Source of the DNA: an uncultured Acidimicrobiales bacterium
GTDB taxonomy: Bacteria; Actinomycetota; Acidimicrobiia; Acidimicrobiales; CALAML01
Assembly: GCA_937925845.1 (NCBI GenBank)
Contig: CALAML010000260.1
Span: 1-64,000 of the forward strand
Reading direction: 5' to 3'
DNA length: 64,000 nt
Within the stretch, counting starts at the first letter, position 1, and each line of letters starts with the position of its first letter. Positions 27,897 to 31,624 of the stretch are shown in pieces. The notes under the pieces are model-generated. The model ran no database searches. It saw only the letters and a program-made list of their open reading frames with translations, and was not told the DNA's origin. The translations under genes were made by a program, and so were the position numbers.

Positions 27897-28082
27897 CCCC
27901 CGTTGCTACCAGGTCTCCCGAGGGATCAACACTGAGTTTCGCAGCCAGTTCCCGAGCGAAATCCGCCGCGGAGGACTTTTCGCAACGAACTATCTGTTTC
28001 AGTGTTGGCTTGGTTGAGTCGATCTCCCAGACCGTTTGGAGCTCCCCAACCGGGCGGGACGGTCAGCACCACCAAGAATCAG

Positions 28083-28156
28083 CGCCCAGGACGGGACTCG
28101 AACCCGCAACCGCTTCCTCGACAGGGAAGTGCTCTACACAATTGAGCTACCTGAGC
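28083..28156 (-). tRNA. tRNA-Asp(GTC)
   Basis: Cloverleaf read by eye: GCTCAGG/CCTGGGC acceptor, CTTCC-CTGTCGA-GGAAG anticodon arm, GCGGGTTCGAGTCCCGT T-arm, discriminator G. Confidence 0.9.
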
Positions 28157-28161
28157 ATGAG

Positions 28162-28234
28162 AGCCCTCGAGAGGAGTTGAACCTCTGACCTCCTGGGTCG
28201 AAACCAGTTGCTCTGTCCACTGAGCTACAAGGGC
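28162..28234 (-). tRNA. tRNA-Arg(TCG)
   Basis: GCCCTTG/CGAGGGC acceptor, ACTGG-TTTCGAC-CCAGG anticodon arm, AGAGGTTCAACTCCTCT T-arm. Confidence 0.87.
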
Positions 28235-28240
28235 AAGATT

Positions 28241-28313
28241 TGGCACGGCGGCGAGGAGTCGAACCCCGAACATCGGTTTTGGAGACCAAAGTGGTGCCCA
28301 GCACCACCGCCGT
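28241..28313 (-). tRNA. tRNA-Trp(CCA)-like with compact D-arm, CCA encoded
   Basis: ACGGCGG/CCGCCGT acceptor, TTGGT-CTCCAAA-ACCGA anticodon arm, CGGGGTTCGACTCCTCG T-arm, GCCA end; D-region is only TGGTGCTGGGCACCACT. Confidence 0.72.
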
Positions 28314-28322
28314 ATGTATGGA

Positions 28323-28396
28323 CCTGCTGGAGGAGGGATCGAACCTCGAAAAGTTGACCGAGGCAGCGAAGGATGAGCGTCGCACTGCGCCAGCAG
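28323..28396 (-). tRNA. Degenerate tRNA-like element (identity uncertain)
   Basis: Perfect 7-bp acceptor CTGCTGG/CCAGCAG with 73-nt spacing and a T-loop (GAGGTTCGATCCCTC), but imperfect anticodon stem and atypical D-arm. Confidence 0.35.
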
Positions 28397-28472
28397 TGCG
28401 GCCGAGAAAATGTCCGCAGAGGCGGTCGAGGAGGCCCCCCGGGGGCCGACGGATCCGCCCTGCGGAATGAAG

Positions 28473-28545
28473 CTGCGAGAGGAGGGATCGAACCTCCGCT
28501 GTCGGTGGGTAACAACCACCCGCTCTGCCGCTGAGCTACCTCGCA
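28473..28545 (-). tRNA. tRNA-Asn(GTT)
   Basis: TGCGAGG/TCTCGCA acceptor, GGTGG-TTGTTAC-CCACC anticodon arm, GGAGGTTCGATCCCTCC T-arm. Confidence 0.9.
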
Positions 28546-28546
28546 T

Positions 28547-28620
28547 TGGCATCCCGCAGGAGAATCGAACTCCTCTCTCCAGGGTGAAGGCCTGGTGTCT
28601 TTGCCGATAGACGACGGGAC
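28547..28620 (-). tRNA. tRNA-Glu(TTC), CCA encoded
   Basis: GTCCCGT/GCGGGAT acceptor, CCAGG-CCTTCAC-CCTGG anticodon arm, AGGAGTTCGATTCTCCT T-arm, GCCA end. Confidence 0.85.
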
Positions 28621-28639
28621 AGGTGATGGCCGGCTGTCG

Positions 28640-28681
28640 AAAACCAAGAAAGCCGCTCTCTCGTTCAGCGAGAGGCGGCTT
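28640..28681 (-). terminator. Rho-independent-like terminator
   Basis: Minus strand AAGCCGCCTCTCGCTGAACGAGAGAGCGGCTTTCTTGGTTTT: near-perfect hairpin followed by T-rich tract. Confidence 0.7.
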
Positions 28682-28890
28682 CGAAGGAAGGGTTGTGTGG
28701 CGGGTCCTCTTTACGAGACCATCACTCCCGAAGCCGGCGAGGGATTGCGCTCCGACCACCGAGACGAGGCAGGACGCGCGCTGGTATCGACCTGGCGGTC
28801 GATACTCGGTGAGTTCTGTTCTGAAGAACTGGTCATTGCCATGGTGGTCTCGGCGGGTGCACGTAGGTCGTGGCTAGCGCCGGGCTCTCA

Positions 28891-28919
28891 GTTATACGCA
28901 CAAGCGCCGCGGGAGTCAA
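28891..28919 (-). promoter_or_regulatory. Sigma-70/HrdB-type promoter
   Basis: Minus strand TTGACT-N17-TATAAC. Confidence 0.65.
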
Positions 28920-29005
28920 CGCAATTTCCGTAGGTCGATTCCCCCACAACCTCCGCTGCGTGCCAGGCCCGACGCCAATGCAGCAACGCAACTACGGTTG
29001 TGCAC

Positions 29006-29467
29006 ATGGGAGGCTCGGAGCGGGTCGATGTCGAGGCGGTCGCTCGCCCGATCGTCGAACGAGTGGTGTGGAGTTCTGTCGCAACTGTGGGGCCAGACGG
29101 CCATCCGCGCACAAGGTTGATGCACCCGGTCTGGTTCTGGGACGCCGAACTGCCGACAGCTCTGGTCTCGGCTCGCCCAACGTCGCTGAAGGTCGCACAC
29201 CTGGCCGCACAGCCGATGATCAGCTGCCATTACTGGGATCCAGCGCACGACACTGTCGCCATCGACGCCGCCGCGCACTGGGTCCCCGGCGGCGAACGCC
29301 AGGACGCCTGGGAGCGAGTGAAGGCCGTGCCCGAGCCCGTCGGCTTCGATCCCGCGATCATCTGGCCGGACGGTAGCTCGTCGGAGGACTGCGCCTTCCT
29401 GCACTTGACGGCGCATCGCATCGTTGCCCAACGCGTCGGCGAGCCGGCGGTGCACTGGCGTCGCTGA
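29006..29467 (+). CDS. Pyridoxamine 5'-phosphate oxidase-like FMN-binding family protein
   Basis: SSVATVGPDGHPRTRLMHPVWFWD...YWDPAHDTVAIDAAAHWV pattern. Confidence 0.68.
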   Translation: MGGSERVDVEAVARPIVERVVWSSVATVGPDGHPRTRLMHPVWFWDAELPTALVSARPTSLKVAHLAAQPMISCHYWDPAHDTVAIDAAAHWVPGGERQDAWERVKAVPEPVGFDPAIIWPDGSSSEDCAFLHLTAHRIVAQRVGEPAVHWRR

Positions 29468-29666
29468 ACAAGCGAGTTGCCCGAGCTGCAGGAACCCCAA
29501 AGGCCCGCCAGGGCCGACGGGTTCCCAGGGACAGGGGCAAAGCGAGAAAAAGTTCGCAGCGCGACATAAGAGGAGCCAGGGAACCCGACAGGTTCCTGGC
29601 GACGACTGTTAGCCCGAACCCCGGGGTGCCTCAGACGATGTTGTGAGCGCTAGCGAGTGAACGACG

Positions 29667-29757
29667 CGGAGAGGGTGGGATTCGAACCCACGGACAGCGT
29701 TGCCGCCGTCACTTCCTTAGCAGGGAAGCCCGATCAGCCAGACTCCGGCACCTCTCC
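29667..29757 (-). tRNA. tRNA-Ser(GCT)
   Basis: GGAGAGG/CCTCTCC acceptor, CTTCC-CTGCTAA-GGAAG anticodon arm, long variable arm, GTGGGTTCGAATCCCAC T-arm. Confidence 0.92.
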
Positions 29758-29844
29758 TATAACCGTTGCCGATGGTACACCGATTCGGCCTCTGAACCGC
29801 ACGAATTTGCCCCGGCGCGCCCGACAGGACGAACCCGTGGGTCT

Positions 29845-29885
29845 AAAACCTACAAAGCCGCGGCGGTGGCCGCGGCTTCGTTCAG
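29845..29885 (-). terminator. Terminator downstream of tRNA-Arg(ACG)
   Basis: Minus strand GAAGCCGCGGCCACCGCCGCGGCTTTGTAGGTTTT hairpin plus T-rich tail. Confidence 0.65.
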
Positions 29886-29959
29886 CGCGCTTGGAGGGAC
29901 TCGAACCCCCAACCTTCTGATCCGTAGTCAGATGCTCTATCCAATTGAGCCACAAGCGC
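29886..29959 (-). tRNA. tRNA-Arg(ACG)
   Basis: GCGCTTG/CAAGCGC acceptor, TCTGA-CTACGGA-TCAGA anticodon arm, GGGGGTTCGAGTCCCTC T-arm. Confidence 0.92.
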
Positions 29960-30592: not shown

Positions 30593-31624
30593 TTAGGTTG
30601 GCGTGGGTAGGCCGTCATATTTGCGACCTCCAGCCTGCCATTCCTCATAAAGGGTGAAGAAGTCAGCACCGAAGGGGTCACCGCCGGTCAACGGCATGGC
30701 CGAGCGGCGAATGGTGAAGTCATGCGGTGCCAGGCCAGCCGCCGTGTCGAAGTGGGCCTTGGCGGCATCGTCATTGCCCGAGCGGCGGGCATGCAGAGCG
30801 ATCCGGTAGTGAAGTCGGGCCCGAACCTCATCGTCGCTTAGCCCGGTAACCGCGGTGGCCGCCGCGTCGGGTTCGATGTCGACCTCGCCGGTTCTTACCC
30901 AGTTTCGAAGGGCTTCGATGTGGGGTTCGCACGACACACCGGTGAAGTCCTTAAAGATGTCGGTGCCGGGCGCTGCGGTATTGGGGCGCACGATCTTGTC
31001 GTTCTCGTCGATCCACACCACCGTTGGGATGTTGGTGATGGAGTAGAGCTCGGTCACGCGATGGTTGGCGTCCATCAGCACCGGGTAGGTGATGCCGTCC
31101 ACAAAGTCGGCGACGGCTTCGGCGTTCTGCTCAAGCGCGATTGCGATCGGAGTGAAGCCGGTGTCGGCCAGTTCGTCGGCTACTGCCTGCCACCCGGGCA
31201 GGTCGAGGGCACAACCTCACCAGCTGGCGAACACGACCAGCATCTTCTTGCGACCCTTGAAACCGGCGGTGGAGACCTGGTTGCCGTCGAGGTCGGGCAG
31301 CACCAGCTCCGGCGCCATCATGTCGTGGACCGCCACGTTGCGTTGGGCCTTGGGTTGCGAAACTGCCACCACTCCGAGATCGGTATCGACCAATGCGGTT
31401 GCGCCAATTGCTTTAGCCACTGCGGTGAGATCGTAGCCGTCACCCAGTGCCAGCGAAGCCGGATCGCTTACCGGGATGCAGACTTCATCGCGACAGAGGC
31501 CCTCTGGCTTCAGTTCCCAGCCGATGGCGGCCGCGAGCCCGGCGGCATCGACCTCTACCCCACTTTCGGAGATCGCTCCGCCCACCCTGGTTTCGTCTTC
31601 GGCCAACACCACAACTTCGCTCAT
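30593..31624 (-). CDS. Thioredoxin-like/TlpA-type redoxin read through in-frame UGA (31217..31219), candidate selenoprotein
   Basis: ORFs 31217..31624 and 30593..31102 are in the same frame and open on both sides of a single UGA: LVVFASW-UGA-GCALDLPGWQAVADELADTGFTPIAIAL...TNIPTVVWIDENDKIVRPN. Confidence 0.72.

Follow-up and report, generated by a model that had tools for sequence, protein, structure and literature searches.

The window (the whole 64,000-nt stretch of DNA analysed) carries on its minus strand, from 31624 to 30593, a reading frame interrupted by just one stop codon, a TGA. If this TGA stands for a residue, the frame gives one 343-aa product (table 1). Gene calling with Table 11 breaks the gene into a 135-aa ORF (31624..31217) and a second ORF whose called start lies only at 31102. 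The original prediction, made from the letters of the DNA, had stated that one frame is split only by UGA at 31217..31219 and that automated callers would return two pieces; translation and gene calling bear out both points. The neighbouring genes encode an HrpA-type helicase, an acyltransferase, a TetR protein, an inositol phosphatase and methyltransferases. Around 39 further family loci (mostly about 1.5 to 6 kb per side), none of the window's neighbours has a match, and no conserved partner was seen. Seven tRNA genes lie just downstream on the same strand (28082-29959, within 2 kb).

Table 1. Features of the predicted selenoprotein locus (window coordinates).
Feature	Position	Strand	Basis
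Predicted selenoprotein gene, 343 aa + stop TAA	30593..31624	minus	Translation; Pfam Redoxin; AlphaFold model; Foldseek
Cys44 and Cys49 (CxxxxC) of the N-terminal domain, possible second thiol pair	31478..31495	minus	Invariant, 11/11 sequences
In-frame UGA, putative selenocysteine (codon 136)	31219..31217	minus	Column TGA in 70, TGC/TGT in 12 related loci
Cys138 codon, putative resolving cysteine of U-G-C	31211..31213	minus	Invariant in alignment A1
Predicted bacterial SECIS hairpin	31186..31202	minus	Fold energy; covariation in UGA genes; published bSECIS model

The joined translation has three parts: an N-terminal alpha/beta domain (residues ~1-90), a ResA/TlpA-like thioredoxin-fold domain (~90-217) and a C-terminal helical, TPR-like part (~233-331). 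An AlphaFold model of the protein (pLDDT 83, pTM 0.86) folds the N-terminal domain with confidence. The assignment of the thioredoxin-fold domain to ResA/TlpA comes from profile comparison (E 2e-20) and from Foldseek (E 9e-11). The best Foldseek matches are ResA structures and cover the thioredoxin domain alone, giving no lead on the N-terminal domain. ResA/TlpA thiol-disulfide oxidoreductases (e.g. structures 1st9, 2h1b and 3kcm) share this central fold with the window protein, but they are without its N-terminal and C-terminal parts and they carry CxxC rather than U-x-C. Pfam Redoxin spans the stop (residues 103-216, E 1e-15), and the active site reads VVFASW-U-GCALDLPGWQ. In the profile alignment this U-x-C (UGC) motif is one residue short of the usual ResA/TlpA CxxC, a detail that can be added to the original prediction.

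Homologues were sought with a genome scan whose search patterns leave out the active site. The scan gave ten homologues, 41-53% identical, from metagenome-assembled genomes titled Acidimicrobiales, Ilumatobacter, Ferrithrix or Actinobacteria. All ten carry TGA at the same codon, which argues against both a sequencing error and a pseudogene mutation. More broadly, 91 of the 296 genomes searched in the window's class have matches to the family, and the column reads TGA in 70 of the related loci and TGC or TGT in 12, with no other codon. The UGA had been placed at the redox-cysteine position of a thioredoxin-like fold, and an alignment of homologues had been proposed as the check; with a column that is Cys or UGA only and a Redoxin match that crosses the stop, this placement stands. 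The 12 cysteine codons, each one base away, also lend some appeal to the reading in which a point change from TGC or TGT accounts for the TGA and the gene is dead, or intact with Cys. Set against this, the same TGA recurs at 70 related loci spread over many independent genomes and the frame behind it is conserved, so we reject both pseudogene and sequencing error as extremely improbable. The apparently broken gene is an intact thioredoxin-fold enzyme gene.

The cysteine forms bear on a second reading, in which the stop itself is regulatory. That is, low selenium would yield a 135-residue N-terminal piece with a role of its own, and the full-length selenoprotein would be made only when selenium is plentiful. 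Such a role would suit an N-terminal domain that is confidently folded in the model and carries the invariant C44 and C49. However, the Cys-form relatives retain the whole protein without the stop and selection therefore keeps the full-length protein, which makes a regulatory stop very unlikely.

Reading UGA as selenocysteine (Sec) needs a dedicated machinery, whose genes selA, selB, selC and selD the original prediction had named for a search of the genome; all four are present. The source genome (5.1 Mb in 328 contigs, 87% complete) was surveyed through family searches, from which the genome-wide counts derive. It encodes a tRNA-Sec with anticodon UCA (66.5 bits), selA (392 bits) adjoining selB (269 bits) on contig C162, and a selD (382 bits) with its own in-frame UGA in a GAG-U-GCK site. 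At this selD locus (L027, contig C40:39375-40295), a strong hairpin lies behind the UGA. Moreover, the genome seems rich in selenoproteins, since three more thioredoxin- or peroxiredoxin-like genes carry one UGA each at the redox site: WAPWUGTC (L104, contig C11), WAPWUVRC (L105, contig C20) and AVWUPPC (L063, contig C112).

Across genomes, the form of the gene follows the machinery. In the UGA-form genomes of the window's group, selA was found in 27 of the 28 tested and tRNA-Sec in 33 of 41; the sole genome without selA is 70% complete. Cys-only genomes have selA in one case of 12 and tRNA-Sec in none of 12 under strict filters (one weak match among ten re-searched with laxer filters), and genomes without a family match have tRNA-Sec in 5 of 20. 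The Cys-only genome with selA (G162) carries it on a contig, C418, where it scores far above the others, and contamination is possible. Laxer filters did not recover tRNA-Sec in eight UGA-form genomes (G252, G020 and G032 among those that have UGA-form genes and selA), three of which are 95-100% complete. Because selA is present in seven of these eight, the gaps are likely due to missing contigs or to a divergent tRNA. One further genome (G195) has two tRNA-Sec genes.

The mRNA behind the UGA can form a SECIS-type hairpin with a 6-bp stem (CCUGCC/GGCAGG), a 5-nt loop (CGGGU) and a folding energy of -10.4 kcal/mol, the loop lying 20 nt after the UGA. The published bSECIS model asks for a loop of 3-9 nt, an upper stem of 4-16 bp, a distance of 16-37 nt from the UGA and an MFE of at most -7.5, together with a G in the first two loop bases, mostly as N1-G[G/U]-N-N2 with N1 and N2 paired (PMC13188914). 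The window hairpin agrees with every one of these terms. By folding energy, the whole 42-nt region is unexceptional (MFE z -0.8) and prefers another fold, and the 20-nt hairpin taken alone reaches z -1.8. As the whole-region energy is uninformative, the hairpin was assessed by covariation. All 64 distinct UGA sequences keep the stem pairs at positions 18-22/28-32. In particular, the pair 20-30 is kept in 64/64 UGA genes and in 6/10 Cys genes, where it is broken in four. The cross-loop pair 23-26 is formed in 63 of the 64 UGA genes (as C-G, G-C or A-U) against 31 expected from shuffles that ignore relatedness; in the Cys genes it is formed in 6 of 10, with 6.0 expected. Independently of the shuffles, the type of this pair changes 11 times on the tree. 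Both of its bases are third positions of codons, for Pro and for Gly/Val (i.e. synonymous sites). As the protein hardly constrains such positions, the pairing points to selection on the hairpin RNA itself, acting only where UGA is used.

The hairpin and the machinery also weigh on a third reading, in which a general suppressor inserts, e.g. Trp or Cys at UGA in place of Sec. The UGA does fall at a Cys column; nothing else specific favours this reading, which had been named as an alternative at the outset and is now disfavoured. In the window, UGA is the commonest normal stop and ends 12 of the 22 long ORFs, which excludes a general reassignment. The window's Trp tRNA has anticodon CCA, and tRNA-Sec, selA, selB and selD are present along with the SECIS-type hairpin. 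Overall, we give a general suppressor next to no chance.

Selenoproteins of this UGC type are a kind already described. 'Prx-like (UGC-containing)' selenoproteins were reported in the Global Ocean Sampling survey of 2008 (PMC2398784), and a 'UGC-containing TlpA disulfide reductase family protein' is listed in a 2026 review (PMC13188914). Both resemble the window gene in their Redoxin/TlpA domain, their UGC Sec motif and their many Cys homologues; as the two entries are given at the domain level, the likeness to the window's subfamily holds at that level. A closer relative is NF041054, the NCBIfam family WAxxUGC_long ('ResA-like WAxxUGC motif-containing protein'), which is like the window protein in length, layout, the UGC motif with its UGA-encoded residue and the N-terminal GW.LKPEG.C....C.P. 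The window protein matches the family over residues 24-315 (205 bits, E 1.7e-60), below its cut-off of 300 bits. Every one of the 11 members of the window's group matches it (best E 2e-67), and two more score 200 and 192 bits. The motif itself is FASWUGC in the window protein, with Phe for the first Trp of WAxxUGC, and WASWUGC in other members of the group. The source genome also holds two paralogues that are true NF041054 members (499 and 433 bits). These lie at L060:1357-2463 (contig C47) and L061:955-2427 (contig C68), have one in-frame UGA each and carry the redox motifs WSPYUGC and WAPYUGC, respectively. The Cys44/Cys49 pair is likewise found in NF041054-type paralogues. Scoring 205 bits where the cut-off is 300 and the two paralogues reach 499 and 433, the window gene represents a well-separated sister subfamily of this known selenoprotein family. 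Our literature searches found nothing under the family name WAxxUGC, and nothing on point for actinobacterial or acidimicrobial selenoproteins.

Taken together, UGA codon 136 of this redoxin/ResA-like gene is very probably read as selenocysteine, and the gene would encode a Sec-containing thiol-disulfide oxidoreductase of the ResA/TlpA fold. The selenoprotein with an SW-U-GC site that had been predicted is supported by the Sec/Cys column, by selA, selB, selC and selD, and by the covarying SECIS-type hairpin. What the DNA itself shows is an intact frame, a Sec/Cys column, the genome's own Sec machinery and a covarying SECIS; from these we infer Sec insertion itself and the redox chemistry. In the proposed mechanism, SelB would attach to the hairpin that follows the UGA and bring in Sec-tRNA-Sec; with Sec inserted at codon 136, translation would run on to the end of the 343-residue protein. 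Within the U-G-C redox motif, Sec would then be the nucleophile and Cys138 the resolving cysteine, and the conserved N-terminal CxxxxC may hand electrons on. The protein likely works in thiol-disulfide or peroxide redox chemistry through a Sec nucleophile, a protein disulfide or a peroxide being the candidate substrate.

The history of the subfamily can be followed on a tree of 80 rows, where the window's group (60 rows) and the NF041054 group (20 rows, including the two paralogues of the source genome) separate with support of 100/100. It requires seven Sec/Cys switches, at least five of them forced by well-supported branches. We tentatively propose, at slightly less than even odds for the scenario as a whole, that in a subfamily widespread across the class and lacking its own model Sec prevails and is perhaps ancestral, that Sec and Cys were exchanged at least five times, that the Cys state goes with loss of the Sec machinery and that U-G-C works with the CxxxxC pair of the fused N-terminal domain. 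For annotation, the result corrects a gene model split by standard callers and adds to the known selenoproteins a sister subfamily that the NCBIfam cut-off would miss. For the biology of the family, it provides a clear natural experiment: the choice of Sec or Cys in one and the same gene goes with whether a genome has or has lost the Sec machinery, and only UGA-using genes keep the SECIS loop pair.
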